This document shows positions 6,228 through 24,046 of a DNA stretch of 64,000 nucleotides, in pieces (position 1 is the stretch's first letter; each line of letters opens with the position of its first letter). A program made the translations under genes and the position numbers. The DNA comes from Bacteroidota bacterium. GTDB taxonomy: Bacteria; Bacteroidota; Ignavibacteria; Ignavibacteriales; Melioribacteraceae. Below the pieces are notes generated by a model that saw only the letters and a program-made list of their open reading frames with translations, ran no database searches and was not told the origin of the DNA. The stretch is from contig JAHISP010000068.1 in NCBI GenBank assembly GCA_018818165.1, positions 1 to 64,000 of the forward strand. The letters are read 5' to 3'.

Positions 6228-6953
6228 TCACATAAATTTTTCACGTTTCTGTAAGTAAAACAATCCTGCAAGCAAACAAATTATTGTACCAGAAAGTAGA
6301 TAAAGTCTGTTGTTAAAAATCACTGTTTCCCAAATTGCTTCACTCATACTATTGGGAATATCAAAAGGATTCAAAAATATATTCCAAGCACTTTCTTGCA
6401 ATATTCCTGCTGAAATCCAAAATATTAATCCAATAACTACCATAATTACTGCTGTACCGTTTCCGTTTCTTACAATTGTTGAAAGAGCGAAAGCCAGGCT
6501 GCCCAAAAAGAAAATTGGGAACATTAATTCATAAACCATCGAGAAGATTGGAACAGAAACCAGAATAACTGAACTAATAACCGCAAGAATTAACAGCATT
6601 ATATAAACTATAAGATATATCATTACTAATCTTGGTAACCAAACTTTATATCGATAATTTGGAATTGCAAAAATATTTTCTAACATACGGGAATCTTCGT
6701 CATTCTGAATTCCAAAAGTGGTTGGATAAAATATTAGTAAAATTCCCGGGAAAAGTAATATGTAAAAAGTATTAAAAACTTGGGCATTTGAATTTGATAA
6801 AAAGTTAATTACAGTAACCAATAGAAAGAATATTACTGCGGCTCCGGTAAAATAGATAAACTTATTAGCAAAAATTATTTTTAATGAATAACTAAATTGT
6901 TTGAGAATTAACTCATAAAAATTGACAATATTTTTTTTCTTATCTGTATGCAT
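6228..6953 (-). CDS. ABC-2-type transporter permease (export locus, gene 7)
   Basis: A 241-residue membrane protein with six predicted helices (for example YFTGAAVIFFLLVTVINFL, TFYILLFPGILLIFYPTTFG, GTAVIMVVIGLIFWISAGIL), typical of ABC-2-type permeases, with a short cytoplasmic N-terminus. Its ATG immediately follows the TAG stop of the RND-ABC fusion gene with no spacer, so translation is coupled. No free ATPase gene adjoins it, and the natural partner is the ATPase domain carried at the end of that fusion protein. It is the last gene of the seven-gene minus-strand locus. The substrate cannot be deduced. Confidence 0.85.
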   Translation of the reverse strand: MHTDKKKNIVNFYELILKQFSYSLKIIFANKFIYFTGAAVIFFLLVTVINFLSNSNAQVFNTFYILLFPGILLIFYPTTFGIQNDEDSRMLENIFAIPNYRYKVWLPRLVMIYLIVYIMLLILAVISSVILVSVPIFSMVYELMFPIFFLGSLAFALSTIVRNGNGTAVIMVVIGLIFWISAGILQESAWNIFLNPFDIPNSMSEAIWETVIFNNRLYLLSGTIICLLAGLFYLQKREKFM

Positions 6954-9900
6954 CTATTTAAATATACTCGTATTATTTTGTTTTTGTAAATATAAATATG
7001 CGTCCTCAAGCGAAGCTCTAACTTTAGTTGCTCCTTCAATATCAAGATGGTCTGCAATACAGCGGACTCTTATTTTATCGCCATCACGCATGTGATTTAC
7101 TATCAATAACTCATTCTGCATTTCATCAAATTGCTCTTTTGTTAAATGTGCTTGCCAGACTTTACCCTCTGCAATACTAGTCATGTTTGCCGGATCACCA
7201 AGGTATTTTACTTCTCCTTGATTCATCACTGCAACACGATTACATGAGCTTGAAATATCTTCAATAATATGTGTTGAAAAAATTACAATTCTTTCTCTAC
7301 TTAAATGAACAAGTAAATTTCTGAACCGAATTCTTTCTCTTGGATCAAGTCCAGCAGTTGGTTCATCAACAACCAATATTTTAGGAAGATGAATTAGAAT
7401 TTGTGCAATTCCAATACGCTGCTTCATTCCGCCCGAAAAGGAGCCAATTTTATCGTTTCGTTTTTCAAACATGTTTACAGAATTAAGAATTGTTTTCAAT
7501 CTTTCTGTGCGTGTTTCTTTGTCAATAAGTCCTTTCAACATTGCTTGATAATCTAGGAATTCATATGCAGTCATATTTTCATACATTCCAAAATCCTGTG
7601 GAAGATATCCAATAAGTCCCTGCAGTTCTTCACGATATTCGTTACGGTCAATTCCATTGATTGTAATTTTTCCATAACTCTGTTCCAGAATACCGCAAAT
7701 AATTCTCATTATTGTTGTCTTTCCAGCACCGTTTGGTCCAAGTAATCCAAACATTCCATTGCCAATTTCAATACTTACTTTATCTAATGCTTTAAATGGC
7801 ACACGTTTCTTCCCTACAAAAGGAATTGAAGAAATTGCATTATAAATTTTTCGTCTAATATTTTTAAATTTGCCTGTCAATTCATCCGTATCAAAACTAG
7901 AATCATTTAACTTATCTACTAAAGATTTAAATGTTAGAGACAAATACCAAATGACAAAAATGAAAAATACGAGCCCAATGTTTTCCCATTTGAAATAGAA
8001 ATAAACAATATTAATAATTGGAAATAACCACAAAAATATCTTTGAAAATGATTGAACTAATTTTCGTAAAAATAACTTGTTTATTGTTGTTAGATTAATG
8101 CTTACAAATATAGATTTGTAAGTAAAATGGATTACAAAATATAGAATTAGAACAAATATAAAATTCCAGAAACTACTTTCTAGATAGAAATACGTGTAAT
8201 AAATCAAGAAGCCAATAAATGGTAATTGCCATACTAAGTTTTCAATTATATTGGACTTTTGAGATTTAGAATTATTTCGCTTTTTACCTTTGTTCCATTC
8301 GCGTGAAAACCTTGATGGTTGATCATAAATTTTAACAACATTTTTAATTTTAATAATTATTTCTTCATTGTCCTTAATTAATTCTGTTTTAGCTTGTCGT
8401 AAACTATTCATAATAAAGTAAGTAATTCCTGGAATAGCGACAATTATGACAAACAAATTTACAAGCTGCCAGATAAAACTATCTATATCAAAATAAATTA
8501 GAAGCGATAGCCCAATGAAACTAATACTTTGTAATACTTTAACCTTCCAATTTAAATCATGAAGCCATTTTAACGATGAATAAAGTCCAGAATAAAATGT
8601 TGGGATAAAAACAAGAGTAAACAAAGTACTTACTGATAATCCACCAATAACGGTAATTGCAAAAGGAGCGCCAATACTTTGAACATATTCCATATCGCCA
8701 AGCGCAAGTGGAAGCATTGCAACAATTGTTGTTATTGCCGTAATTAATATTGGGCGAACTCTGGCAAGACCAGCAACAATTAGAGCACGCTGATTTGAAT
8801 AGCCTCGTTTTTTTAAAATATTTGTGAAGTCAATAAGTATAATTCCATTATTAACAACAACTCCAAGTAATATTAAAAAACCAGTAAGTGTATTTGTATT
8901 TATCAGCGAATTGCCCGTAAGTATTAAAGCAATTAATGATCCAATAGCAGCGAGAGGGATTGAAAACATTAGTATCAGCGGAGTTATAAGTGACTCAAAA
9001 ACTGACGCAAGAATAAAGTAAATAAATAATATTGCTACAAAAATTAGAAAATAATATTCATCATACTGATTATCTTCGTGAACAACTTCCACCGCAATTC
9101 CTGGTAAAATAGGAATAGCGGCAATCATTTCATCAATTTCTATTCGCGCTTGATCAAGTAATGCTTTAGAATCGTTTACCTCAGAAAGGAGCCTATATGT
9201 TACTTCTACTTGTTTTTCTTGATTTACGCGTTTAATGGAAGATAACCCTTTAGTGTAAACTAATCGGCTAAACTCTTGAAGTTCGTGGAGTGAGTTTTTT
9301 GAATTGGCTATTTTCAAAGTACGTAAATCATCTATGGATTTATCTTTATTTTCTTCTTCACCTTCAACTCGAATTGTTATGTCGTATTCTTCAGTTCCCT
9401 CTTTGAATGTAGTATTGGAAGAAAATTGACTTCTAAATGTTGCTAATTCTTGAGCAACTTGCGTTGGTGTAATATCATATTCACTCATCAAAAGTGGGTC
9501 GAAATACATTCCAACCTCAGGACGCTGACCAGACGTAGAAACTTGAGCACTTTGAACAGAGGATAAGTTTTCTAGATAAAATTTTATATCCCCAGCTGTT
9601 TTGACCATTTGCTCATAGCTTGTCCCCTTTATTGTAACTTGTTCAGTTTGAGCTCCAATTCCTAACATGCTTTGAAAACGGCTTCCCATTTGCGGACCAC
9701 CACCACCTCGAAATCTATCACTATTCTGTGGCTCGTCAAAACTAATTTCAGTACTACCAGTATTTCCAATTCTGGATAAAATATCTTCTTTTATTTTTGT
9801 GATATCACGATTATCAATCTCTTTGAAATTGTCTTTTAATTTCAACGTAATGGTAGATTGATCTTCATACACCTTGCTTATAACATCTTTAATTTCAGCA

Positions 9901-11663
9901 ACATCAGTTAATCGTTCTTCAACCATTTTTGCAGTTTCATCAGAATTATCAAGCGATGAGCCTTGTGGCATTTGCACGTATAAATTAAAAGTATCAGTAT
10001 CCACTTCTTCCGATACATTTGCACTAATTGCCAATGCTATAAAAACACTAGTAAAAAACAAAATAACAGCGCCAATAATTGTCCTTGCGGGAAATCGCAT
10101 ACATGATTTAAGAAATATCAAATATATTTGAAGAAGACGATTATCCAAACCAAGTTGTTTGAATGAATAATTTTTTGAGCTTTTATTTCGCAACATAACG
10201 TGTGTCATCATTGGAATTAATACAAGAGATAGAACCAACGAAACAAGTAGAGTTGAAATAATTGAAACCCCAATGTGTGTTCCAAATGTACTAATTAAAT
10301 AACTTTCCGAAAATACAAATGGAAGAAATACAGTTACAGTGGTTAAAGTAGCTGCAATTATTGAACGGCTAACTTCCTTAGTTCCATTAACAACCGCATT
10401 TATTCTACTTTCACCTTTTGAATATAGCCTATAAATATTTTCAAGCACAACCACACTATTATCTAGCAACATACCAACAGCGAGGGCTATACCTATTAAT
10501 GTGAGGCTATTAATTGATATATCATACGCATAGAAGAAATTGAATGCGGTAAAAATAGAAATTGGAATAGCTAACCCAATTGCTAAAACAAGTTTTATTT
10601 TTTTTAGAAAAAGCCATAAAACAATCATGGCAAGTAAACCGCCGGTAAGAGCCAGATTAATAATAGAATCAATATTCTCTTCCATTGTTTGGGCTTGATT
10701 TTGCTGAACCACAATTTCTGCATCGCTAGTTGATAAATCTGAATTTAGATAGTCAATAATTTTTAGGACATTGTGAGATAAGTCAATCAAATTTGCTTGT
10801 GAATCTTTCGTTAATCTTATTGTAACAGACGACTTTCCATTAACACGGCTGTATGTATCTTCCTCTTTTGCTCCAAAATAAATTTTGGCAATATCTTTTA
10901 GTCTAACAGGACCACTGGTTCTTACTACAATATTTTCCAGGTCAGAGAGTTTTGTATTTTCGGCTGTTAAATTTACAAAATACTCCGTTTTGTTTTCTTT
11001 TGCTTGTCCAACAAAAACTCTTTGTTGATTATTGGATGCAACTAAACTACTTACTTGAGCAGGTGTAATTCCATAAGCTTCAGAAGCATCTTTGTCTAAA
11101 ATAATTTCAATAGACTTTTGTCTTCCACCAAAAACTTCAACATTGGCAATGCCATCAATATTACTAAGCTGATCAACAATTCTTTCATCCGTAATATTTC
11201 TCACTCTATCAACATCGCCACTACCGCGAACTTGCAAATCCATAAATTGATTTGTTATTTGCTCTGTATCAATTTTTAGAATATTTATTATAAACTCATC
11301 GTCTAGGCTAGATTTAATGCTATTAATTCGCTCTTCCAGTTTTAGATAAGCATATTTTAAGTCAACATCCGATTTATAAGAGATATAAATTATACCCGAG
11401 CGATAATTGACATATGAGTCAATGCTTTCAATACCTTCAAGTAATCCAATTACTCCTTCTATTGGAATAATTGCATTACGTTCCATATAATCTGGATTAA
11501 CATCACTCCGTGAATTAACTTGAACAAACATCATTGGGAGTTCAACATTTGGGAATAATTCCACAGGAAGGTTTTTGTATGAAATATATCCAAGCCCAGT
11601 TAGTGCTATAAAAAACATACTAACAAAAACTTTTCTCATTACAATATTTCTGAATAAACTCAT
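6954..11663 (-). CDS. RND efflux permease fused to an ABC ATPase (export locus, gene 6)
   Basis: A single open frame of about 1569 residues. Residues 1 to about 1015 are a complete RND pump: N-terminal helix, porter domains, helix-4 motif GIALAVGMLLDNSVVVLENI and a second six-helix bundle. Two extra helices follow. Then comes IIIKIKNVVKIYD (about 1101-1113), which aligns with the first strand of an ABC ATPase, and after it about 170 residues with roughly four membrane helices. The ATPase then resumes: FKALDKVSIEIGNG, Walker A GLLGPNGAGKTT (about 1306-1316), signature FSGGMKQRIG, Walker B ILVVDEPTAGLD and the switch His in STHIIEDIS. All catalytic motifs look intact. ATG 11663 has GAGGA upstream and is preferred to the TTG at 11681. 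It lies 7 bp after the preceding RND gene. The predicted role is envelope export powered by both proton flux and ATP, which is inference. Confidence 0.9.
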   Translation of the reverse strand: MSLFRNIVMRKVFVSMFFIALTGLGYISYKNLPVELFPNVELPMMFVQVNSRSDVNPDYMERNAIIPIEGVIGLLEGIESIDSYVNYRSGIIYISYKSDVDLKYAYLKLEERINSIKSSLDDEFIINILKIDTEQITNQFMDLQVRGSGDVDRVRNITDERIVDQLSNIDGIANVEVFGGRQKSIEIILDKDASEAYGITPAQVSSLVASNNQQRVFVGQAKENKTEYFVNLTAENTKLSDLENIVVRTSGPVRLKDIAKIYFGAKEEDTYSRVNGKSSVTIRLTKDSQANLIDLSHNVLKIIDYLNSDLSTSDAEIVVQQNQAQTMEENIDSIINLALTGGLLAMIVLWLFLKKIKLVLAIGLAIPISIFTAFNFFYAYDISINSLTLIGIALAVGMLLDNSVVVLENIYRLYSKGESRINAVVNGTKEVSRSIIAATLTTVTVFLPFVFSESYLISTFGTHIGVSIISTLLVSLVLSLVLIPMMTHVMLRNKSSKNYSFKQLGLDNRLLQIYLIFLKSCMRFPARTIIGAVILFFTSVFIALAISANVSEEVDTDTFNLYVQMPQGSSLDNSDETAKMVEERLTDVAEIKDVISKVYEDQSTITLKLKDNFKEIDNRDITKIKEDILSRIGNTGSTEISFDEPQNSDRFRGGGGPQMGSRFQSMLGIGAQTEQVTIKGTSYEQMVKTAGDIKFYLENLSSVQSAQVSTSGQRPEVGMYFDPLLMSEYDITPTQVAQELATFRSQFSSNTTFKEGTEEYDITIRVEGEEENKDKSIDDLRTLKIANSKNSLHELQEFSRLVYTKGLSSIKRVNQEKQVEVTYRLLSEVNDSKALLDQARIEIDEMIAAIPILPGIAVEVVHEDNQYDEYYFLIFVAILFIYFILASVFESLITPLILMFSIPLAAIGSLIALILTGNSLINTNTLTGFLILLGVVVNNGIILIDFTNILKKRGYSNQRALIVAGLARVRPILITAITTIVAMLPLALGDMEYVQSIGAPFAITVIGGLSVSTLFTLVFIPTFYSGLYSSLKWLHDLNWKVKVLQSISFIGLSLLIYFDIDSFIWQLVNLFVIIVAIPGITYFIMNSLRQAKTELIKDNEEIIIKIKNVVKIYDQPSRFSREWNKGKKRNNSKSQKSNIIENLVWQLPFIGFLIYYTYFYLESSFWNFIFVLILYFVIHFTYKSIFVSINLTTINKLFLRKLVQSFSKIFLWLFPIINIVYFYFKWENIGLVFFIFVIWYLSLTFKSLVDKLNDSSFDTDELTGKFKNIRRKIYNAISSIPFVGKKRVPFKALDKVSIEIGNGMFGLLGPNGAGKTTIMRIICGILEQSYGKITINGIDRNEYREELQGLIGYLPQDFGMYENMTAYEFLDYQAMLKGLIDKETRTERLKTILNSVNMFEKRNDKIGSFSGGMKQRIGIAQILIHLPKILVVDEPTAGLDPRERIRFRNLLVHLSRERIVIFSTHIIEDISSSCNRVAVMNQGEVKYLGDPANMTSIAEGKVWQAHLTKEQFDEMQNELLIVNHMRDGDKIRVRCIADHLDIEGATKVRASLEDAYLYLQKQNNTSIFK

Positions 11664-11670
11664 GTAATAA

Positions 11671-14600
11671 TTATTCCTCAATCACACTTGAAGAGCTTTT
11701 GAATTTACTTACAAAACTTTCAAATATGTAATAAACACAAGGGATTACAATAAGAGTTAATAAAGTTGAAGTAACTAGCCCACCAATAACTGCATAAGCC
11801 ATAGGCGAACGTAATGAAGCACTTTCCCCAAATCCAAATGTTAATGGAAGCAAAGCTAAAATAGTTGTCAAGCTTGTCATAATAATTGGTCTAATTCTTT
11901 TTTCACCTGCAAGTATAATTGAATTTTTTAAACTCATTCCCTCATTTTTCAATTGATTAATTGCGTCAACTAAAATAATTGAATCGTTTACCGCAATTCC
12001 GCTCAGCATTATTATTCCTATGAATGCCATAATATTAAGCGACATTCCAACAATGAAAAATATTAAAATTGCACCAACACCAGCTAATGGTATTGTAAGC
12101 AAAATTGTAAATGGATGAACAAGCGATTCAAACTGTGAAGCAAGTGCCATATAAACTAAAATAATTGATAACACCAAAGCAAATGTGAGATTAGACATCG
12201 ATTCCTTTCGCATCAATTCTTCACCAGTAATTTGAACTTTGTAATCAGGTGGAAATTCAATTTTTGCTAATTGAGTGTTAATTTCATTTACAATTTTGTC
12301 AAGAGATTTATCCCCAACAATTTGTGCTGTCACTTTGCCAATTCTAATTTGGTTACTTCTGTATATTTCTTTTGGAGCTGTTGTTTTTATAATTGTTGCT
12401 AACTCAGATAATCTATATTTGGATTGACCATTCACAATTATCAAATTTTCAAGCTGCTTAATTGAAACATCAGGCAATTTTAGAGTAATATTATTCATCT
12501 CGCCATCGTAATCCCAAGACCCAGAATTTTTACCCATAAGTTTATCTTGCAATTGTGTTGTTATTTGTTGAATTCCAATATTATAAAGACCAGTTGTAAG
12601 TCTATTAATTTCTATCTCAATTACTGGAGTTCCTTCTGAGAAACTGGATTCAATATTTACTAAAGAACTTATGTTTGAAATATTTTTGTGAACTTCATTT
12701 GTTAAACTTTCTATTACATCCAGTTCTTCACCAGAAATTTCCACAATAATTGGAAAATCCTCAGTTCCCAATATTTGTGCAAGAGGTGTTTCACTCTGAG
12801 TAAATTTATATTCTAGCTCTGGAATATTTCCAAGAATATTTTCAATTTGTGAATGGGCTTGTAGAGATGAATTAGTAGAATGTTCCTTTAACTGAATGCG
12901 AATTGAGCCTGTGTTATTATCCTCATCAAAAGATTCCTCCGAATTACTTATGCCAGTGCTAGGACCTGCTTGAGAATATATTGTTTCAATTAGATTTCCC
13001 ATTTGCTCCATAAGGATTTTCTCAATTGAAATAATTGTTCCCGAAGTTCTTTCCAATTCTGTTCCAACTGGTAATTTAATTCCAATAGTAATTTCAGATG
13101 TATTTGTTTGTGGCATAAATTCGCTGCCAACAAAAGGAAAAATAAAAACTGTAGCTACTAAAAGAAAAACACTAAATAAAATCACTTTCCAACGATTATC
13201 AATTACTCTGCCTAAAAACTTTGGATAAGCCTTCATGAATTTGAATGTATGTTTACTTGTTGATTTTATATTCTTGAGAAATTTTGTACTCAACATTGGA
13301 ATTAAAAATATTGCAACAAAAAGTGATGATATTAATGAAAATGCAACAGTCCAAGCTTGGTCCTTAAACAATTCACCCGATGCACCTTGAAGATAAACTA
13401 TTGGCAGAAATACAATAATTGTTGTTATTGTTGAAGCCGTAATAGCACCACCAACCTGTGCTGTACCCTCAATTGCAGCTTGCTTAAGCGGCATACCTTC
13501 TTCTAATAATCGAAATATATTTTCAACAACAACTATTGAATTATCCACAAGCATACCAGCACCTAACGCAAGTCCTCCAAGTGTCATAATATTTAGCGAC
13601 AAATTATTGAAGTACATTAAGTTAAAAGTGGCTACAATTGAAATTGGAATTGCAGCACTAATTATTGCCGTAACTCCAAAGCGACGTAAAAATACAAAAA
13701 GCACAATAACTGCAAGCACTATACCCATCATTGCAGTTTCTTCAACTTCATCAATGGAAGTAGAAATAAACTTTCCTTGATTTTGAACAACAGTAAATTC
13801 ATAACCTGGCAAAGCTTTACCAATCTTAATTAAATCTTCGTTTAATTCTTCAACTGTTTTTATTGTGTTGAATTTGTTCTCTTTATAAATTGAAAGTCCA
13901 ATACACCTTTTCCCATTTATATGAACAATATTTTTGGGTTCAGCATTAGAAAAAGAAACCTCCGCAACGTCACTAAGGTAAACTGGCGCTTTAACAATTG
14001 AATCATTTTCAACTGTTTGTGTGTACTTAACAATAGTGTTCTTAAAATCATTTAACTCTTGAAATGTACTAAAGCCTTTAATTGTATAGTTAGTTCCCAA
14101 TTCAACAATGGAACCACCAGATAAATTGCGATTAAATTTGTTAATCTGTGTATTCAAATCATCCAGAGTTAAACCATATGCTTCAAGAATATAAGATGTT
14201 GATTTTATTAAAACTTCTTTTTCTTCTGAGCCGCTAATTTCAACATCTGCAACGCCTTCAAGCCTTATTAGCTCATTCCTAATATAGTTTTCTGCAGTTT
14301 TGCGCAAACTATTCATGTCAGTAATTGAGCTATTAAACATTGCCACAATCATTACTGGACTTGAATTTGGGTCGTATTGTGAAATAGTTAAATCATCAAT
14401 ATCCCAATTTTGAGACGCCGAATTTATAGATTTTTGCAAATCCAAAAATGCGGCATCCATATCTTTGTCCCAAGCATATTCAACCGTAATTTGAGCTGCA
14501 CCAACTTTTGAAATTGAAGATATTTGAACTACTCCACTTTGACGCATAGAAAGTGATTCAAGATTATCAGTGAAATTTTTCTCAATTTCTTCCGGTGGTT

Positions 14601-14763
14601 TTTCTCCAGCCTCTAAAAGGATATATAGTTTAGGATTATTTAAATCTGGGAATAAATCAACACCCAGTCTTTCAAACGAAATATATCCCATTAACAAAAT
14701 TGCTAAAACAATCATCAATATTGTAACAGGATATTTTACAGAAAATTCTGCTAATTTTTTCAT
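11671..14763 (-). CDS. RND efflux transporter permease (export locus, gene 5)
   Basis: A 1030-residue RND (HAE1/AcrB-like) inner-membrane pump of standard length. It has a first helix near residues 10-28 and two large periplasmic porter/docking regions. The helix-4 motif GALGLGAGMLVDNSIVVVEN-type (observed GAGMLVDNSIVVVENIFRL) carries one Asp and an Asn where AcrB has two Asp. A second bundle near the C-terminus includes GIAVNDSIILVDAI. It pairs with the adaptor and TolC-like genes just upstream and with the RND-ABC fusion just downstream, so the two RND chains may form a hetero-oligomer as in MdtBC. ATG 14763 is chosen over TTG 14769, 16 bp after the adaptor stop. Confidence 0.93.
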   Translation of the reverse strand: MKKLAEFSVKYPVTILMIVLAILLMGYISFERLGVDLFPDLNNPKLYILLEAGEKPPEEIEKNFTDNLESLSMRQSGVVQISSISKVGAAQITVEYAWDKDMDAAFLDLQKSINSASQNWDIDDLTISQYDPNSSPVMIVAMFNSSITDMNSLRKTAENYIRNELIRLEGVADVEISGSEEKEVLIKSTSYILEAYGLTLDDLNTQINKFNRNLSGGSIVELGTNYTIKGFSTFQELNDFKNTIVKYTQTVENDSIVKAPVYLSDVAEVSFSNAEPKNIVHINGKRCIGLSIYKENKFNTIKTVEELNEDLIKIGKALPGYEFTVVQNQGKFISTSIDEVEETAMMGIVLAVIVLFVFLRRFGVTAIISAAIPISIVATFNLMYFNNLSLNIMTLGGLALGAGMLVDNSIVVVENIFRLLEEGMPLKQAAIEGTAQVGGAITASTITTIIVFLPIVYLQGASGELFKDQAWTVAFSLISSLFVAIFLIPMLSTKFLKNIKSTSKHTFKFMKAYPKFLGRVIDNRWKVILFSVFLLVATVFIFPFVGSEFMPQTNTSEITIGIKLPVGTELERTSGTIISIEKILMEQMGNLIETIYSQAGPSTGISNSEESFDEDNNTGSIRIQLKEHSTNSSLQAHSQIENILGNIPELEYKFTQSETPLAQILGTEDFPIIVEISGEELDVIESLTNEVHKNISNISSLVNIESSFSEGTPVIEIEINRLTTGLYNIGIQQITTQLQDKLMGKNSGSWDYDGEMNNITLKLPDVSIKQLENLIIVNGQSKYRLSELATIIKTTAPKEIYRSNQIRIGKVTAQIVGDKSLDKIVNEINTQLAKIEFPPDYKVQITGEELMRKESMSNLTFALVLSIILVYMALASQFESLVHPFTILLTIPLAGVGAILIFFIVGMSLNIMAFIGIIMLSGIAVNDSIILVDAINQLKNEGMSLKNSIILAGEKRIRPIIMTSLTTILALLPLTFGFGESASLRSPMAYAVIGGLVTSTLLTLIVIPCVYYIFESFVSKFKSSSSVIEE

Positions 14764-14779
14764 AAACAATCTTTAATAT

Positions 14780-15829
14780 TTACTTGATGATTTTAACTTT
14801 TTGTCTATTTCTTAATGTCTCAAAGCCTTTGGTTACAAGGCGATCATTAACTTCTAGCCCATTTATAACTTCTATCGATTCTGGATTTTCTAATCCTGTA
14901 GTAATTACTCTTTCTTCCGAAGCACCTTTTACCACAACAAAAACTGTTTTTCCGCGCTTCCTAGATAGAATAATATTTTTTGCAATTACAACAGCCTTGT
15001 CTTTACTAGCCGTTACAAGTTCTGCTTTCACAAACATTCCAGGACGTAGCTTCCATTTTGGGTTATCTATTTGTAGTACCGCTTTGAATGTTCTTGTTCC
15101 TTCATCAATTGCCGGGGATATTTGAGTGACCAACCCTTTTAACGTATCATCAGGCAACGAGTAATTCATTATTCTGGCTACGGTGTTCAATTTCAAAACA
15201 TTCAATTGTTTTTCGGGTAAATTTATTTCCAAAAACAATTTACTATAATTCATTATTCCAACTAAAGCAGTATTTGCAGATATTTTTGTTCCATCGGTAA
15301 AGTATGGCAAACTTACTATCACTCCTTCAAAAGGAGCTACTACTTTCATTTTGTTAAGTTCAATTTGTGCAGCTTTATAAGAATATTCCTGATTGATAAA
15401 ATCCAGCTCAGCTGATTTTAATTCGGTCTGCGTAACTCCACCTTTATCATAAAGTGATTTTTGTTTTTCAAACGTGCTCTTTTTTTGCTCAAGTTGTAGT
15501 TTTTGATAATCGATACGGATATTGTTTTCATATTCCGCATCTTCAATATGGATAATTACTTCGCCTTTTTTTACCTTATCTCCAAGCTTGTATAATTTAC
15601 TAGTAATTGGATTTATTTTTAGATGATATTTACCAGATATTTCTGCTCGTAACGTTGCATCCATTGAGGCATAAACAGTTCCTGTGGCATCAACAAATTC
15701 TTCTATCGGTTTAAGTTTTACATCTTCAACAGAAACGGGAATAGTAATTTCGTTATCATTGTTGAAATCGTTGTTCCCGCATGAATAAAGAAGAACGCCA
15801 CTTAGTAATAAAAATAAATATTTTTTCAA
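14780..15829 (-). CDS. RND periplasmic adaptor lipoprotein (export locus, gene 4)
   Basis: A membrane-fusion/adaptor protein of about 349 residues linking the inner-membrane pumps to the TolC-like channel. It begins with a lipoprotein signal (KKYLFLLLSGVLLYSCG, lipid on the Cys). The usual beta-barrel, lipoyl and hairpin order follows: 'VYASMDATLRAEISG', a coiled-coil hairpin around residues 95-150, then VVAPFEGVIVSLPYF closing the lipoyl domain, and a barrel with PGMFVKAEL. The frame opens at GTG 15841, but GGAG stands six bases before TTG 15829, which also begins the signal directly, so TTG is the likelier start. It is the only adaptor in the locus and may serve both RND chains. Confidence 0.9.
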   Translation of the reverse strand: MKKYLFLLLSGVLLYSCGNNDFNNDNEITIPVSVEDVKLKPIEEFVDATGTVYASMDATLRAEISGKYHLKINPITSKLYKLGDKVKKGEVIIHIEDAEYENNIRIDYQKLQLEQKKSTFEKQKSLYDKGGVTQTELKSAELDFINQEYSYKAAQIELNKMKVVAPFEGVIVSLPYFTDGTKISANTALVGIMNYSKLFLEINLPEKQLNVLKLNTVARIMNYSLPDDTLKGLVTQISPAIDEGTRTFKAVLQIDNPKWKLRPGMFVKAELVTASKDKAVVIAKNIILSRKRGKTVFVVVKGASEERVITTGLENPESIEVINGLEVNDRLVTKGFETLRNRQKVKIIK

Positions 15830-15849
15830 TTTTAACTCCACTTAAAAAA

Positions 15850-17322
15850 TTACTCTTTTATATATTTAATATCTGAGACAACCGGACTATTTTTTTCAAA
15901 ATCATAAAGTGATTGAATTTTCATATTCAACAATTCTAATTTATAATTTATTAAAGATTGTACTTTTGTCATTTTGGCTTCGGATAGTTGTTGCTGAAAT
16001 CCTTGTAAATCAATGCTGGTTAAATCACCATTGGAGTATCTTTCCAAATTAATATCGTATGAAAGCTGTGCATTACGCTGACTTATTTCAGATATTTTTA
16101 TTTGATTTTCCATGTTTTGAATATTACGATAAACACTTCTAATGCTTACCAGTATTGAGTTTTTTTGATCATCAAAATTTATCTTTGATGATTCTATTGT
16201 CTTTTCTGAAGCTTTTATTCTTGAACTGCGCTCTCCCCAATCGAACAATGGAATGCTGAATGTCATTGAAAAATCTTGATTATTTGTTGGTGTATCATAA
16301 ATGTTCGCTAAATCCGAATCTGTTCCTATAAGACCAACTGCTAATCTTAAATTGCCATAAAATTCATTTGTGGCAGAAGTCTTTATAAGATTGAACTGAG
16401 AATTTTCAACATCAATTTCTCGTTGACGTAGTTCCATTCTTTTAGTAATTCCACTTTGGATTGCTTTTGTTAAATCAACATCGTAATGGCGATATGAAAT
16501 ATCAGCAATAATATCAATTTCTTCATCAATAGGAATTCCAACTAATTGCTTAAATTGATCATACTGATTTTGCAATGTTACTTCAGCATTTTTCAAACTC
16601 ATTTCACTGTTTAGCATATTTAATTCAGCTTGGTAACGTTCGTCCTGTGAAAGGATTCCTGCATCAACTTTGTTTTGAGTAAGTGCATAATTTGATTTTT
16701 GGCTTTCATATTCTTCGTTTGCAATTTGTAAACTAAGTCTTTGACGAAAAAGTGAGTAAAAACTTTCAGATACATTTTTTTCAATATTCAATTTTTGAAT
16801 GGCATAACTTAATGAGGAATTCTCTAGATCAAGTTCTAGTTCACTAAGTGCAATTTTTGTTCTGTTATACGTAAACAAGGGTTGATCAAAGCGTAAATAG
16901 AGATTGTTGGAAAATGATTTTGAATTGTCGCTATTATTATCGCTGTACGAATCACGATATTCAAAATTATTATTTATAGAAAGAGTTCCATCTGTCCAAA
17001 CAATTGGCTGAACAATACTAAATGTTCCACCAGATGTTTTATTTTCAGAAGTGTACCAAGAAGATGTGAAATCAAAAAATTGTCTGTTCTTGGAATATTC
17101 AAATGGAGCCAAATCAAGTTGGAATTTTGATTTTAGCGCTGCGTTCTGAGCGTTTAACGATTCTTGACTTCTCTCTAAATTTAGAATAGAACGTCTTATA
17201 TCTGGACTATTTTCAAAAGCGGTTTTAATTGCTTCATCAATTGTTAAAACTGTTTGCGCTTTTAGAGACACAAAACAAGTTAACATAATAAATAAAATTT
17301 TTGTTCTGCTTTTTAGCATCAT
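15850..17322 (-). CDS. TolC-like outer-membrane efflux protein (export locus, gene 3)
   Basis: A 490-residue outer-membrane channel of the OEP/TolC family. A signal peptide (KILFIMLTCFVSLKAQ) is followed by 'TIDEAIKTAFENSPDIRRS', the standard family opening. Long alpha-helical coiled-coil segments (about residues 150-280 and 350-470) are present in the usual internally duplicated arrangement, with beta segments between. AGGA lies five to six bases before ATG 17322. It is 20 bp upstream of the adaptor gene and provides the exit duct for the tripartite pump. Confidence 0.92.
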   Translation of the reverse strand: MMLKSRTKILFIMLTCFVSLKAQTVLTIDEAIKTAFENSPDIRRSILNLERSQESLNAQNAALKSKFQLDLAPFEYSKNRQFFDFTSSWYTSENKTSGGTFSIVQPIVWTDGTLSINNNFEYRDSYSDNNSDNSKSFSNNLYLRFDQPLFTYNRTKIALSELELDLENSSLSYAIQKLNIEKNVSESFYSLFRQRLSLQIANEEYESQKSNYALTQNKVDAGILSQDERYQAELNMLNSEMSLKNAEVTLQNQYDQFKQLVGIPIDEEIDIIADISYRHYDVDLTKAIQSGITKRMELRQREIDVENSQFNLIKTSATNEFYGNLRLAVGLIGTDSDLANIYDTPTNNQDFSMTFSIPLFDWGERSSRIKASEKTIESSKINFDDQKNSILVSIRSVYRNIQNMENQIKISEISQRNAQLSYDINLERYSNGDLTSIDLQGFQQQLSEAKMTKVQSLINYKLELLNMKIQSLYDFEKNSPVVSDIKYIKE

Positions 17323-17351
17323 GAAATTCCTAAATTAAAATCATTTTTAAA

Positions 17352-20300
17352 CTAATTTCTTTCAACCCACTTTATTGCGTCTGCAAAAACAACACTATTT
17401 TCCGACTCATTATTCAGCGAAACCTTTGCCTCACCTGCAGAAAGATAAAAACTTCCTAGCAAATTCCAACCAACTTCAGAATTATTAAAATCAAGATTTA
17501 TTTCTTCGTCGCCATCATCATGACTAACGATGTAGTGATATTCCCTTTTTTTACTATCTGATTCTTCATCTCGCCTTCTAAATCCTGCGTTTGGTTTTAT
17601 TATATGTGTATAAATATCGTAATACCCGCTTTTCTCTATATTCACTTTCCAATTAACAACAGCTTTTCCTTCACCAGATTTAGCAAAATGAGCTGAATGA
17701 ATAAATTTTCCATATGTGTCAGAATTAATAGTCGCACGCCAAGCTTCAGGTAAACTCCACGGTCTAACTCCAATATATTTGGTTGTATCCGAATCTTCCA
17801 TATTTAGAAATTTCTTTAACCAGCTACTTTGTTGAGGATTATTAGCTACAAAACCGGAATCCTCATTATCCACAATATATTCATAAGGTGATGAAAATTT
17901 ATCAAGTTCATTTAATACAACCTTTTCAACAATTGGTTTTGCCTTTTTATTTTCACCGAATTCTTGAAAATTAACTTGCTGTTGTAGTGGTAAATTTTGA
18001 GAAAGAAAAGTGTTCATTATTAAACTGCCTGGCTCTTCATCTAGCACGGTTGAGTATGACAGTGTTTTACCGAGAGGAATTTTTACAAATTCTTCAAAAA
18101 TTGTTTCTTCTTCAGAATTGTCGCGACCAAAGAATCCACCACCTCTTTCACGGCGTGGATTAAATGTTAATTTAATAAATCCATCAGTTTCGCTTGGATT
18201 AGATATATTCATTTTAATCTGATATCTTTCCCGTTCGTTATCAACAATTTTATAATTTTGGATGTTTGTAAAATAAAATCCAGGTAATTTTTTATTATTG
18301 CTCCAACTATCTACTTGATTTTTAATATCTAATTCATATTTTCTAAAATAATTCTCAAAGTCTTGCATATCAATTGAACTAAATTTACTCTCATTAAGAA
18401 ATTGTATAATTATTTCAGAAAGATTTTCCTTGCCAATTTCATTTGCAAGAGCTACAAAAAAATATTTCGATTTTAGTTTTACTATACTATTTAAATAACG
18501 GTTAAATGTTGTATCACTAACTATTTCTGCAAGACTTTTGGATGATAATTTCATTGCAGCACTTTCATCAGGTGTAACACCTAAAATATTTCTAGCAAAC
18601 CCTACACTGCTATTATCTTCGGCAATGCTCAAATAATTTTCAATAGCAATATTAATTGCTGGATATTTTTTTGAATTTATATGATTTGTGAAATAATAAA
18701 AATTTGAGAATATAGAATATGGTTTTTCATCAATCTCGTTTGGATTAGCATTAAATCTGAATCTAATTCTTGAACTTTTATCCAGCAGAGTTCCATTCAC
18801 AAAATTTTTGAAATTATTTGATTGGTTTTCAATTGGCAATACAACCTGATTACTTCTATTCCCAAATCTGGATTGCATTCTTTCTCGCAATTTGAAATCT
18901 GCTTCCGAAAGTTGTATAGCATTTTCTGGCAAAAATACAATTTGAGGTTGAACATACTCATAACCAGTTTTCCAAAATCGTCTATATGAAGTAAATTGAA
19001 TTGGAACTTCAACGAGATTTAGTTTATTATATGGATAGCTAATGTTCAGCTCTCTTTCATAGTCTTGTTTTAATTCTCTTATCAATGGTTTTAATGTGTC
19101 ACCAAGTTCATTTGAATATTCTTCATAATAATTGTGGTTTGCTAATGTGTAAAGCGAATAGTTAACAGAATCTACGCTCAAAGTTTTTTCTACGTAATTA
19201 CCAATTGTCAATGAAATCTGTGGAAGTGGATTATCATTTACAAAAACAAAATTAGCCTCGTTTGTTTCTAATTTAATTCCTTGAGAAATTGCTGTTAAGT
19301 TATTCTCTTTATTAATAGTAAGTTGAAATTTTGTAAAATCGAATGGTTGACTTAACTGATTTTCAAAAGAATAAGATATTCCAGAAGTTGGATACCACAT
19401 ACATTCTTGAGTTAAGAGTACGAAGCTTGGAGTAATAAAAGAAAATTGATTTGTAGCAGCAAACAGCCAAATCCTTTTGGGTTTATTAAGCATTTCATCT
19501 GTCTGATCTAAATAACATGCAAAATCATAGATTTCACCAGAATACTCAAATTTCAAATTGATTTTTCCATTTGTAATTATTGAATTCTTAAAAGACAAGA
19601 TTACTAAATGTTCTTTTCTGGTAAAATCTATTTCAGCGTTATTTGATGTTATTTTTGTTATTTCCAAACCTGGATTCAATTTTAATGTTGCTTGTTTTAG
19701 AGATTGAGTATTATTATTTACAGCATCTATTTCTGAAACAACTGAAATAGAATTTCCGTTGTGCACAAGATTTATTTTATTCTCGGTAAATGTAAGGCGT
19801 GGAAGCAAAGCATATTCATTGTTCAACTTTTTCATCGAAACACGAATATCGGCTGAGCTTACAAAACTATTTACGTAGCTAAATCCTGTAACCAAGCCAA
19901 TTCCAAGAAAAACAAATGCAAGAACAATAGTAACCTTTTGCAACAAAGGAGATTGAGGTAATCTTTTGAAAAGAACTGTTGTGAAGAAAATAAACGAGAT
20001 TCCAAGTGAAAAATAAAGAGTTCGCAAGAGTAAAAGACTAGTAAAATTTCCAAACCCAATAAAATCGGAGTATAAAAATGGTAAGTAAATTCCGGTATAA
20101 TCAAAAAGGTTGTAGAATTTACTCCCAATATAAAACAATGTTACTGCAATATATCCTAGAAGTAGAATAAAAGTAATAGCTTGATTTTTGATTATTGTCA
20201 TTATTAAGAATGACAATCCCGTAATAAATATAATTGTTGGAACGCTTATCAGAAAAAAGTAATAGAGATAAGCTGAAGGCAAAATATTATTATTTTGAGC

Positions 20301-20711
20301 AAATAAATTAAATCCAAATGAAATTAAAATTACAATAAGATTTAGTATTAAAAATACTAGGAATAGTGCAAGCGCTTTACCGAAAACATACTCGACATTT
20401 GTCATTGATCTAATGTAGATCACTTCGCTAGTATCAAGTTTTTTATCGCGTTTAAGAAAATCGGAAGCTAAAAAAACAGCAATTACAGCAGCACCAATGT
20501 TAAACAGCAAAATATTAGTATACGGAATAGAAGATGTCATTCCGTACATATCTCGCGGTATAAATGATTGGAAAGTTTCAGTAAAAGCTGTAAGATTGTA
20601 AAGAAATAAAATTACAAGAATAATTCCGGAAAATATTCTAAAAAACCAACTTCTTAAAAGTGTTTTTACTTCATACTTAACGATAGTTAAAATATTATAA
20701 AGAGATAACAT
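17352..20711 (-). CDS. ABC permease fused to degenerate M1-like and golvesin-like domains (export locus, gene 2)
   Basis: About 1119 residues. The first ~300 form an ABC-2-type permease with about six helices (for example YTNILLFNIGAAVIAVFLAS). A periplasmic region of about 500 residues follows, resembling the M1-aminopeptidase-like part of Bacteroidota 'ABC permease/M1 peptidase' proteins. I find no HEXXH zinc motif in it, so it is probably a non-catalytic relative. The C-terminal ~130 residues (GYYDIYTHIIKPNAG, later WNLLGSFYLSAGEAKVSL and VVFADAIKWVER) match the golvesin/Xly-type beta-sandwich. The frame is open from GTG 20756, but ATG 20711 has GAGGG upstream and sits 19 bp after the ATPase stop. 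It likely partners that ATPase. Confidence 0.85.
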   Translation of the reverse strand: MLSLYNILTIVKYEVKTLLRSWFFRIFSGIILVILFLYNLTAFTETFQSFIPRDMYGMTSSIPYTNILLFNIGAAVIAVFLASDFLKRDKKLDTSEVIYIRSMTNVEYVFGKALALFLVFLILNLIVILISFGFNLFAQNNNILPSAYLYYFFLISVPTIIFITGLSFLIMTIIKNQAITFILLLGYIAVTLFYIGSKFYNLFDYTGIYLPFLYSDFIGFGNFTSLLLLRTLYFSLGISFIFFTTVLFKRLPQSPLLQKVTIVLAFVFLGIGLVTGFSYVNSFVSSADIRVSMKKLNNEYALLPRLTFTENKINLVHNGNSISVVSEIDAVNNNTQSLKQATLKLNPGLEITKITSNNAEIDFTRKEHLVILSFKNSIITNGKINLKFEYSGEIYDFACYLDQTDEMLNKPKRIWLFAATNQFSFITPSFVLLTQECMWYPTSGISYSFENQLSQPFDFTKFQLTINKENNLTAISQGIKLETNEANFVFVNDNPLPQISLTIGNYVEKTLSVDSVNYSLYTLANHNYYEEYSNELGDTLKPLIRELKQDYERELNISYPYNKLNLVEVPIQFTSYRRFWKTGYEYVQPQIVFLPENAIQLSEADFKLRERMQSRFGNRSNQVVLPIENQSNNFKNFVNGTLLDKSSRIRFRFNANPNEIDEKPYSIFSNFYYFTNHINSKKYPAINIAIENYLSIAEDNSSVGFARNILGVTPDESAAMKLSSKSLAEIVSDTTFNRYLNSIVKLKSKYFFVALANEIGKENLSEIIIQFLNESKFSSIDMQDFENYFRKYELDIKNQVDSWSNNKKLPGFYFTNIQNYKIVDNERERYQIKMNISNPSETDGFIKLTFNPRRERGGGFFGRDNSEEETIFEEFVKIPLGKTLSYSTVLDEEPGSLIMNTFLSQNLPLQQQVNFQEFGENKKAKPIVEKVVLNELDKFSSPYEYIVDNEDSGFVANNPQQSSWLKKFLNMEDSDTTKYIGVRPWSLPEAWRATINSDTYGKFIHSAHFAKSGEGKAVVNWKVNIEKSGYYDIYTHIIKPNAGFRRRDEESDSKKREYHYIVSHDDGDEEINLDFNNSEVGWNLLGSFYLSAGEAKVSLNNESENSVVFADAIKWVERN

Positions 20712-20730
20712 TGTTTCCCTCAAGATTAGA

Positions 20731-21642
20731 TTACCAATTAGAATTATTTCTTTCACTAGTCATTTCAGGCAAAAGATATTCAACAAAATATATATATGCA
20801 TGTTCAAGATTTGGAGCTATTTCCTTACCTTCGTATCCATTAAGATTATCTGCAACTAACTCAACTTCCCAAGAATCGTCAACTGGAATTGTTGATATTA
20901 CTGGATATTTCTCCTTTAAAAGATTTAAATCGGAATCATAAGCCATTATTCGGAAAACATGTCCTTTTGCTTTTTCAACAAGAGAATTTGGCGTTCCCTG
21001 AAACATTAATTCTCCATTTTGGAGTAATGCCATTTTGCTGCATGTGCTTGAAATATCACCAACAATGTGAGTTGAAAGAATAATTATTATCTCTTCCCTG
21101 CTCATGTCTGAAAGCAAATTTCTAAATCTGATTCTCTCTTCCGGATCAAGCCCGGTTGTTGGTTCATCCACTATTACAATTTTTGGATCACCAATTAATG
21201 CTTGTGCAATTCCAAGTCGTCTCTTCATTCCACCAGATAATTTATTTGCTAATCTATCACGGAATTTAAAAAGACCAACACTTTGAAGCATTTTTTCTAC
21301 TTCATCACTGCGCTTACTTTTCTTTTTTAATCCGGCAAGACTTGCAGAATAGTCTAAAAATTCCCAAGTAGTTAATTTTGAGAAACTTCCAAAATCTTGT
21401 GGAAGGTAGCCAAGCATAGTTCTAATTTCTTTTCTGTGTTTAACTAAATCAAAATCATTTACTGTTACTTTGCCAGAACTAGGAAGCATAAGTGTAGCCA
21501 TAATTCTCATCAACGTCGATTTTCCAGCCCCGTTTGGCCCTAAAAGTCCAAGCATTCCGCTTTCAATTTCAAGATTAATGTTATTTAGTGCCTTGTTGCC
21601 ATTACTGTATACTTTGGATAAGTCAGATATTTTTATATTCAT
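20731..21642 (-). CDS. ABC transporter ATPase (export locus, gene 1)
   Basis: A 303-residue ABC-2-type ATPase with an intact Walker A (GLLGPNGAGKST), Q-loop (YLPQDFG), signature (LSGGMKRRLG), Walker B (IVIVDEPTTGLD) and switch His (STHIVGDIS). After the nucleotide-binding domain comes a small C-terminal domain ending LEHAYIYFVEY. It is very similar, segment by segment, to the ATPase part of the RND-ABC fusion encoded downstream (shared RIRFRNLL, STHI.DISS.C and LE.AY.Y), which suggests duplication within the locus. The frame is open to 21711, but the domain begins at ATG 21642. It is the first gene of the operon; 187 bp separate it from the cyclase gene upstream, so the operon promoter is probably there. 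Confidence 0.93.
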   Translation of the reverse strand: MNIKISDLSKVYSNGNKALNNINLEIESGMLGLLGPNGAGKSTLMRIMATLMLPSSGKVTVNDFDLVKHRKEIRTMLGYLPQDFGSFSKLTTWEFLDYSASLAGLKKKSKRSDEVEKMLQSVGLFKFRDRLANKLSGGMKRRLGIAQALIGDPKIVIVDEPTTGLDPEERIRFRNLLSDMSREEIIIILSTHIVGDISSTCSKMALLQNGELMFQGTPNSLVEKAKGHVFRIMAYDSDLNLLKEKYPVISTIPVDDSWEVELVADNLNGYEGKEIAPNLEHAYIYFVEYLLPEMTSERNNSNW

Positions 21643-21829: not shown

Positions 21830-24046
21830 TTACTTACTTTCCATTTTAAAAACACCACTCCAATTTATAGGTGGAATTAAATTAAAACTTTCAATCTTTT
21901 GATTTAAAGAAATTGCCACTAAATCCGAACTATAAATTTCTAAATAATTTCCAAGATTTTCATTTGCCAATTTCCAATTACCAGAATAGTAATTCTGTAA
22001 AATAATATTAAACTGATTAAATTGGATTTTAATATTAGCAAGCTCATTTTCTTTTAAATTAAAAACCAAATCAATTAACTCAAAAATTCTTACGCCCTTT
22101 TCCTTCCCTTTAACAGCCACATTATCTATTTCACGATAAATAAATTCATCACTAAGTTCATTCCTAGTAGCTTCCGAGATTAATATTTCTGAATTATAGT
22201 ATTTATTTAGAGCTTCAAGTCTGGCAGCTAGATTCATATTGTCACCAATACCAGTATAGTCAAATAACTGCTCAGAGCCCATATTCCCAGTAATCATATC
22301 GCCAGTATTTATTCCAATTCTTGTAATCAAATTTTTGAAGTGTTCAATATTTGAAAATTTATCAGATATTTTGTGCGACAGTTTTCTCATTTCAATTGCG
22401 GCAATACAAGCTTTTTGAGCATGGTTTTCCAAATCCAATGGAACGCCAAATAATGCAACTATTGCATCACCAATATATTTATCAAGCATTCCTTCATTTT
22501 TGAAAACAGAAGATGTTAACTCAGTCATATATTCTTTCAGAAATTTAGTAAGCTCGCTCGGTTCAACATTTTCAGAAATGCTGGTAAACCCTTTAATATC
22601 AGTAAAAAGAGCTGTTACATTTTTATATTCACCACCGAGTTTTAATTTTTCGGGATTGTTTAACATCTCATTCATAATTGATGAAGGAAGATAATGCCCA
22701 AATGTCTTTTTTATTTTCATTTTTTCTTGCAATTCTGTTTTGTAGCGATATAAAACTATTGCAATAAAAGAGGTAGTTGAAAAATATATTACTAATCCAA
22801 AATTTATGAGTAAATGAAATGATGAAAATATCAAATAATCACCAATGAACGCAACAAATAAAATTATTGGATAGAGAAGCACAGTCCAAGTTATATTAAA
22901 GCGACTAAAGAGATAGAACGATATTAACACCAAAATGACAAGTACTATAATTTGTAATTCTGTATTAATTGGTCTAATAAACTCGTTATGCAAGGCATTA
23001 TGGACAAAAGTTGCATGAAGTTCAACACCAGGATAATTTTGATCTATTGGAATAGTTTTTAAATCGTGCAAACCTATTGCAGAAGAGCCGACAAATACAA
23101 TTTTATCCTTAAAATATTTTTGAGGAATTCTCTTCTGTATAATATCCGAGAACGAAATATATCTGAAAGTCTTTTTTACACCATAAAAATTTAGATATGT
23201 TCGTCCCTCTTCATCAATTGGAATATTAATTTTTTCATCACTTTTGGAATAAAGTTTACAATAACTTTCAGTAAACGAAATTGAATCAATTTCCAAAGCA
23301 TCAAGCACTAATTGAAAACTGAAATTTGCAACTAACAAAGAATCGTAGATAAACATTGGCTCATAATGCCTTGTTGTTCCATCATCATCTGGAGAAATAT
23401 GCCCGAAACCTATGCTGTTTGCATTATCACTAAGAGATTTAATTGGCAGATTTGGGTTTGTAATTTTTTTTATTTTAGGCAAATACGGAAAAGAATTAAT
23501 AGGTATTTGCAGCATATTTTTAGGAAGTGTTATTAAATTTAATTCATCTCTAAAATAATTATCAAATGCTCCGAGAGTAGTAATTTTTGAGTTGTGTAAA
23601 GCGTCAGCAAATATCTTTTCAGTATTTAGAGATTTAATTACTGAAAATATTTTTTCTTTATCTAGATTTATCTTTTTTGAAACATCATCAGTGTAATAGC
23701 TAACAATTTCTGCACTTAAACTATCAGCTTCTGTGAAGAACATATCAAAAGCAATTGCTTTGGCTCCACCTTCTGAAATATAATTTACAACTTCTCCATA
23801 ATATGCAATAGGCCAACTTGAATATCTTCCAAGTTTTTGTATGCTTTTTTCATCTAGATCAATAATTACAATATCATTTATTTTCTTTTTTTCTCTACCA
23901 GCTATACTAATGTTGAATTTTAAATCATAAATAAATTTATTAATTCTATTAATGGAACCGCTAACTGGAGCCAATTGGAGAAATAGAACTGAAACTACTG
24001 TATAGATAATTATCAATCCGTAGACTAAAAGATATTTCCCTTTCAT
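21830..24046 (-). CDS. CHASE2-domain adenylate cyclase
   Basis: A 738-residue membrane sensor cyclase. After an N-terminal helix (residues 6-24) comes an extracytoplasmic CHASE2 domain (about 30-340) with the family patterns IVIIDLDEKSIQKLG, AIAFDMFF and IVFVGSSAIGLHD. Three closely spaced helices lie at about 350-420, then a class III cyclase domain (about 465-660). This has the metal-binding Asp in LFTDIKGFTS and in DKYIGDAIVALFG, and the TGIGDNMNLAARLEALN segment that favours ATP over GTP. A helical tail ends the protein. It should make cAMP in response to an envelope signal. It is the last gene of a three-gene minus-strand operon with the FecR-domain and NHL/TPR proteins. Confidence 0.92.
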   Translation of the reverse strand: MKGKYLLVYGLIIIYTVVSVLFLQLAPVSGSINRINKFIYDLKFNISIAGREKKKINDIVIIDLDEKSIQKLGRYSSWPIAYYGEVVNYISEGGAKAIAFDMFFTEADSLSAEIVSYYTDDVSKKINLDKEKIFSVIKSLNTEKIFADALHNSKITTLGAFDNYFRDELNLITLPKNMLQIPINSFPYLPKIKKITNPNLPIKSLSDNANSIGFGHISPDDDGTTRHYEPMFIYDSLLVANFSFQLVLDALEIDSISFTESYCKLYSKSDEKINIPIDEEGRTYLNFYGVKKTFRYISFSDIIQKRIPQKYFKDKIVFVGSSAIGLHDLKTIPIDQNYPGVELHATFVHNALHNEFIRPINTELQIIVLVILVLISFYLFSRFNITWTVLLYPIILFVAFIGDYLIFSSFHLLINFGLVIYFSTTSFIAIVLYRYKTELQEKMKIKKTFGHYLPSSIMNEMLNNPEKLKLGGEYKNVTALFTDIKGFTSISENVEPSELTKFLKEYMTELTSSVFKNEGMLDKYIGDAIVALFGVPLDLENHAQKACIAAIEMRKLSHKISDKFSNIEHFKNLITRIGINTGDMITGNMGSEQLFDYTGIGDNMNLAARLEALNKYYNSEILISEATRNELSDEFIYREIDNVAVKGKEKGVRIFELIDLVFNLKENELANIKIQFNQFNIILQNYYSGNWKLANENLGNYLEIYSSDLVAISLNQKIESFNLIPPINWSGVFKMESK

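Follow-up and report, generated by a model that had tools for sequence, protein, structure and literature searches.

A single-chain fusion of an RND permease and an ABC ATPase domain divided by predicted membrane helices, in a conserved seven-gene cluster of Melioribacteraceae and other bacteria

The gene cluster and the fusion gene

The window analyzed here is a stretch of 64,000 nucleotides from a Bacteroidota bacterium of the family Melioribacteraceae (GenBank assembly GCA_018818165.1, contig JAHISP010000068.1, positions 1 to 64,000 of the forward strand). Positions 6228-21639 carry seven genes arranged head to tail, all on the minus strand and with gaps of 0-29 bases (start codons as chosen). 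In the order of reading they are a standalone ABC ATPase with an uninterrupted domain (20731..21639), a large ABC-2-like permease of 1119 aa (17352..20711), an outer-membrane efflux channel (OEP, 15850..17322), a periplasmic adaptor (HlyD_D23, 14780..15841), a partner RND permease of 1032 aa without an ATPase (11671..14769), the RND-ABC fusion (6954..11663) and a small ABC-2-like permease of 241 aa (6228..6953). The genes for an inner-membrane pump, an adaptor and an outer-membrane channel, that is, for a tripartite efflux system, are therefore found together.

The fusion gene is a single uninterrupted frame of 1569 aa with the start ATG at 11663 and the stop at 6954-6956. Its RND permease part (residues 7-1025, 8589..11645) matches ACR_tran of Pfam near end to end (profile positions 5-1018 of 1021, E 3e-168), which is a full-length match of the kind given by RND (HAE-1) permeases, and ABC_tran of Pfam matches residues 1295-1437 (E 3e-28). 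The features that follow the RND part, all on the minus strand like the gene itself, are two added membrane helices, TM13-14, placed by alignment-averaged hydropathy (residues ~1043-1085, 8409..8537); a separated, predicted strand-1/A-loop segment of the ATPase including Tyr1113, placed by an A-loop matrix and by a profile on ABCA1 (residues 1101-1114, 8322..8363), of which residues 1102-1114 are IIIKIKNVVKIYD; a conserved tail with the consensus RF.REW (residues 1115-1127, 8283..8321); a four-helix membrane insertion, TM15-18, placed by hydropathy and charge counts (residues ~1145-1247, 7923..8231); and a basic stretch before strand 2 (residues 1248-1289, 7797..7922). The ATPase domain resumes at residue 1290 with FKALDKVSIEIGNG (residues 1290-1303), and the remainder of this domain and the C-terminal part extend over residues 1290-1569 (6957..7796). 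Walker A (GPNGAGKT, residues 1309-1316, 7716..7739), the ABC signature (FSGGMKQR, residues 1409-1416, 7416..7439), Walker B (ILVVDEP, residues 1429-1435, 7359..7379) and the switch histidine 1465 (7269..7271), which together mark an ABC ATPase, are all present.

The large and the small permease are called ABC-2-like only, because neither of them matches an ABC-2 membrane family over the cut-off. The large permease consists of seven hydropathy peaks near the start, an M1-like domain and a C-terminal Golvesin_C domain, and its best ABC-2 model in Pfam is ABC2_membrane_3 (E 0.0018, 17.9 bits against a cut-off of 31.6). Its Peptidase_M1 match is below the cut-off and HExxH is missing in 7/7 proteins, so an active peptidase was rejected; the M1-like domain is likely a pseudo-peptidase. 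The small permease has six hydropathy peaks, no Pfam match over the cut-off and no ABC-2 model match, and its comparison with the PDB gave one weak match only (TMH4C4, E 0.01). It has a conserved charged loop, Q.D.D....E..F..P.YRYK, which is invariant in 27 aligned proteins and which we take to be of the kind found in ABC-2 proteins. The seven-gene unit with its two ABC-2-like permeases was not part of the original prediction, which had been made from the letters of the window.

Distribution and conservation

In a scan of 84,980 species genomes with a profile of the linker, which would pass over any fusion lacking the insertion, 348 pattern matches and, among these, 250 confirmed relatives were obtained, and the best 80 were read. 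Two of them (L052 and L055) are contigs of genomes G140 and G342 again, and consequently 78 + 7 = 85 distinct fusions were compared, the seven being that of the window and those of six genomes from genome searches. Among the best 80 of the 250 scan loci, 71 have complete frames of 1158-1828 residues (median 1577) and nine are cut by contig ends. In all 85 distinct fusions, the reading frame stays open from the RND part through linker and A-loop Tyr to Walker A, and the ABC signature is found in 84/85, Walker B in 82/85 and the switch histidine in 82/85. The sole fusion without a readable signature, L076, is cut by the contig end; Walker B is missed in L056 and L076 (contig-end cuts) and in L083 (unread bases), and the switch histidine is unreadable in the same three. 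The prediction of a single frame with a full RND pump and an ABC ATPase with intact motifs is thus borne out by the 85 fusions, the 1569-aa chain of the window among them.

The taxa found among the best 80 of the 250 loci are Melioribacteraceae, Prolixibacteraceae, Marinifilum, Carboxylicivirga and Chlorobiota, and furthermore Krumholzibacteriota, KSB1, Calditrichota and a Deferribacteres MAG. Strain-named carriers exist in Marinifilum, Prolixibacter, Sunxiuqinia, Carboxylicivirga and Mangrovibacterium, so experiments are possible. A quick tree of 77/85 fusions, with SH-aLRT as its only support and with some long branches, broadly follows families and has the window among the Melioribacteraceae. 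The architecture is stable and is kept across several phyla. At a closer range, the linker profile was searched in 391 genomes of the class and 395 of the phylum, with the own genome in both, and matched in 5/391 class genomes (4 full fusions) and 8/395 phylum genomes (6 full fusions); G215 (L050) and G606 (L051) were rejected as fusions, being weak linker matches only. A search with a full-length profile, as had been suggested together with the prediction, gave the same 6/395 phylum genomes at E 1e-200. The four other genomes of the same genus have no match at E 1e-100, and therefore the distribution is patchy. In addition, two records of a plasmid search matched in part, neither with a fusion, and an unfused forerunner operon was not seen in the phylum genomes at E 1e-200 for the fusion and E 1e-40 for the large permease, which is a weak result because two candidates per genome only were scored.

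The neighbouring genes were counted in the 78 scan loci, each gene where there was enough sequence by the limits chosen, and these loci stop short of the standalone ATPase. The small permease is downstream of the fusion in 71/74 loci with room, and upstream of it are the partner RND permease in 68/68, the adaptor in 61/61, the channel in 58/59 (missed in L081) and the large permease in 54/56 (missed in L082 and L115). As for the three misses of the small permease, in L073 a longer frame overlaps and covers it, and the sequence of L068 and L093 runs out within 700 bases. The standalone ATPase is next to the large permease in 6/6 genomes and is present as a cut frame in a further one, G342, and the motifs of both ATPases are canonical. 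In 7/7 genomes where the whole cluster was examined, it contains a pair each of RND proteins, ATPase domains and ABC-2-like permeases. Moreover, the large permease (E 1e-40) and the fusion occur in the same 6/395 phylum genomes, a co-occurrence that is not independent of their linkage. The fusion belongs to a conserved cluster of seven genes.

Selection was estimated in eight closely related pairs, and dN/dS was 0.00-0.14 in 36/40 segment values, the other four being not computable because synonymous sites were saturated. An assembly or frame artefact that joined neighbouring genes is refuted by the 85 distinct fusions, because the junction is the same in 85 distinct contigs of many assemblies, cultured strains included, and because purifying selection acts on both sides of the junction and in the linker. 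The gene is a real and selectively kept single-chain fusion of an RND permease and an ATPase domain of the ABC-2-exporter type. The fusion frame is broken in three MAGs (L083, L086 and L094), each time in the RND part and never at the ATPase junction, and L125 has a full-length fusion frame with a short second frame over the start; these irregularities may be decay or sequencing error.

The divided ATPase domain and the added helices

The position of strand 1 was sought with an A-loop matrix, for which the strand-1/A-loop stretches of 22 other ATPases encoded in this genome were used (29 loci inspected, 23 ATPase frames and 22 motifs, the standalone ATPase of the operon being among the 22). 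Within the 300 residues before Walker A, the best place of the matrix is the segment described above in 85/85 fusions, and the same place is best in 85/85 when the whole chain up to strand 2 is scanned. The segment scores 20.2 bits on average (lowest, 13.2) and the best rival site in the linker 2.5 bits (highest, 9.7), and the segment of the window has 22.5 bits against a maximum of 21.1 in 2000 shuffled linkers. The matrix is limited in specificity: residue 252 of the window protein also reaches 13.6 bits, and the 22 true ATPases themselves, each left out in turn, obtain scores between -4.5 and 25.6. All 85 fusions have the A-loop Tyr. It is not ~20-30 residues before Walker A, where strand 1 and the A-loop aromatic residue are placed in an ABC ATPase, but 189-230 residues away (203 in 52/85); in ordinary ATPases of the own genome the distance is 22-29 residues in 22/23, and the 23rd has none in the sought range of 20-36. 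The gap between the segment at 1102-1114 and the resumption of the domain at 1290 is 175 residues, in agreement with the earlier estimates of ~1101-1113 for the segment and ~170 residues for the gap.

In an unweighted alignment of 87 rows, two doubles included, column conservation is 0.74 in the A-loop segment, 0.54 in the preceding helices and 0.52 in the insertion, and among the seven segments compared beyond residue 1025 the ATPase part ranks highest (0.83). When a profile of 82 sequences was compared with PDB sequences by HMMER, the strand-1 positions were put on ABCA1 917-931 and the remainder from 936; the strand-1 piece alone is below zero bits against ABCA1, so its placement alone counts. 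The linker profile was also compared with the standalone ATPase, where it found the correct place with a negligible probability. This standalone ATPase has the same pattern unbroken, K.Y.NGN.A and then GM.GLLGPNGAGK, and because the pattern is here in one piece, the insertion lies at the short turn that links the A-loop to strand 2.

It might be objected that the motif is short and that residue 252 is a rival site of 13.6 bits, so residues 1102-1114 would be a mere look-alike and the fused domain would simply be without strand 1. This is very unlikely, however, because the segment has rank-one placement and the Tyr in 85/85 fusions and is conserved above both flanks, because HMMER puts it just before the point of ABCA1 where the rest aligns, and because strand-1-like sequence directly before FKAL is absent in the seven sequences aligned.

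The topology was derived from a simple hydropathy and charge count averaged over the 85 fusions, not from a trained topology predictor. Two added peaks follow the RND part (1052 and 1076) and four are inside the insertion of 1114-1290 (1152, 1173, 1214 and 1238); two peaks before 1102 and four after 1114 therefore make six added helices in total. The four insertion helices had been claimed from the start, and the two before 1102 had not been named. The mean number of Lys + Arg is 2.6 in 1024-1046, 13.0 in 1085-1144, 5.8 in 1183-1207 and 11.0 in 1247-1289, and it is 0.1 and 1.2 in the loops 1160-1163 and 1223-1229, respectively. This distribution places both the A-loop segment and the ATPase domain in the cytoplasm. 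The inserted helices have no match near the cut-off in Pfam, nothing convincing among PDB sequences (best E 3, ribosomal) and no match to the small permease.

The alignments, the matrix, the hydropathy and the profile placement all support the prediction that membrane helices separate the strand-1/A-loop segment from the remainder of the ATPase domain; the segment, which by sequence evidence would pack as strand 1 in the fold, is parted from strand 2 by four predicted membrane helices. UvrA, SMC and Rad50 are discontinuous ABC ATPases with large soluble insertions after Walker A. The fusion resembles them in having a large insertion inside the ABC ATPase domain, whereas its insertion is membrane-spanning by prediction and is located before Walker A. 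We know of no precedent for a membrane insertion at that place, and the present case suggests that the ABC fold tolerates one before Walker A. As to its family, the fused domain is closest to the GldA and DrrA models of NCBIfam, both below the cut-off, and its profile is nearest to ABCA1/3/4/7 and NosF chains in the PDB. ATPases of the GldA/DrrA/NosF/ABCA type pair with ABC-2-type permeases.

The energy source and the proposed exporter

The proton relay of the AcrB type is taken here to be Asp-Asp in TM4 and Lys in TM10 (AcrB numbering and role). The first TM4 Asp is kept in 80/80 fusions reaching that position. The second is replaced by Asn in 79/80 and by Ser in the remaining one, and where the alignment has the TM10 Lys, 85/85 have Asn. 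The AcrB-type proton relay of RND (HAE-1) permeases is consequently not found in the fusions; the pattern is common to unfused RND relatives, so membership of the RND family is not excluded. Both RND proteins of the window (11671-14769 and 6954-11663) have Asp-Asn in TM4 and Asn at the position of the relay Lys. In the unfused RND proteins of related genomes in which both motifs are readable, Asp-Asp goes with Lys and Asp-Asn with Asn, and the partner RND proteins have Asp-Asn in TM4 in 62/63, with seven TM10 motifs not read by the pattern and one Ser. The relay change was rejected as a fusion-specific feature, since RND proteins that are not fused have it too in related genomes (L016, L020 and L023, for example, show the Asp-Asn and Asn-Asn pattern). 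Therefore, the single-chain RND-ABC fusion and the membrane-split ATPase domain of the original prediction stand, but its description of the RND part as proton-driven is not secured, as the relay Lys and the second Asp are replaced by Asn in 85/85 and 79/80, respectively.

The same replacements, together with the location of the ATPase on the RND chain itself, would agree with a fused ATPase that drives the RND trimer, replacing or assisting an ion gradient, with the permeases as separate clients. We regard this as unlikely, because the identical Asp-Asn/Asn pattern occurs in unfused RND relatives, so the fusion is not singled out by the relay change, and because a second ATPase and two ABC-2-like permeases accompany the fusion.

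The anatomy of the fusion is well supported, and from it and the gene content we infer how the exporter may work. The cluster probably encodes one tripartite exporter of hybrid build, with an ABC-2-type exporter fastened to a heteromeric RND pump. The two RND proteins would form a heteromeric trimer like MdtB and MdtC, the fused ATPase domain and the standalone ATPase would be the two-site pair of an ABC-2-type exporter, and the small and large permeases would be its membrane halves. The use of ATP would shift the substrate across or out of the inner membrane to the RND trimer, and the trimer would pass it via the adaptor and the channel to the outside. With the ATPase joined to one RND subunit, the ABC exporter would stay next to the pump, and the helices placed in the A-loop hairpin would keep the nucleotide site at the membrane and might pass on its movement. 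In ABC exporters this hairpin faces the membrane, which makes an insertion of helices at that point sterically plausible. As for stoichiometry, one subunit of the heteromeric RND trimer would be the fusion, and the ABC-2-type exporter next to it would use the fused ATPase together with a free one; the gene content of two RND proteins, of which one has an ATPase, one further ATPase and two half permeases would fit this well. In the case of other pumps, ABC exporters often hand cargo to RND pumps through the periplasm, which is given as their usual route (PMC5979437); in the present system the exporter and the pump would be physically linked.

Alternatively, the fused ATPase domain may be a tether or a regulator that anchors the ABC exporter to the RND complex, its own ATP turnover being dispensable, since the standalone ATPase could supply a homodimer and the small permease gene is directly after the fusion gene. 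This is improbable in view of the catalytic motifs, which are kept in every fusion where they can be read, and of the ATPase part being the most conserved of the segments compared. If the hybrid tripartite exporter is taken further, it may perhaps represent a new exporter class in which one complex runs on two engines: a heteromeric RND pump would be covalently joined to an ABC-2-type exporter, and the membrane domain inserted at the A-loop hairpin would carry nucleotide-driven movement into the membrane and the RND trimer; this extension is tentative.

Among known systems, the MdtABC-type HAE-1 pump likewise has two RND genes in tandem and an adaptor, and MdtB is the best solved-structure match of the RND part of the fusion (9lyq_B, E 1.4e-71). 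MdtBC is mentioned as a heterotrimer (PMC8277102). The present cluster departs from MdtABC in that one RND protein carries six extra helices and an ABC ATPase, that Asn takes the position of the relay Lys, and that it also contains the channel gene and genes of an ABC exporter. ABC-2 exporters of the GldA/DrrA/NosF/ABCA type are alike in the profile of the ATPase domain and in the ABC-2-like permeases of the cluster, but here the ATPase is covalently on an RND pump and is interrupted between the A-loop and strand 2. MacAB-TolC is an ABC engine working with an adaptor and an outer-membrane channel, and is similar to the present system in this respect, whereas the ABC exporter here is ABC-2-like and tied to an RND pump. 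MacB bears the ATPase on its own permease (PMC8277102), and 'split NBD' in PMC5979437 refers to dimeric transporters such as MacB. No description of an RND-ABC chain or of a membrane-split ABC domain was found in the literature searched, which included the available parts of PMC10872679, PMC8277102 and PMC5979437 and had subscription papers and preprints outside its scope. The parts belong to known families and their covalent and genetic arrangement is new. By their energy source, RND and ABC exporters are assigned to different classes; a conserved chain with both of them, in a conserved gene set, makes it testable whether, and in what way, ATP and ion-gradient export are coupled by bacteria in one machine.

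Two neighbours of the operon were named by eye. A LytS/LytR-like sensor kinase and response regulator (719-2589, other strand) are near the end of the operon and are a possible regulator, and a cyclase-like protein with a long extracytoplasmic part (21830-24046, same strand) is directly upstream.
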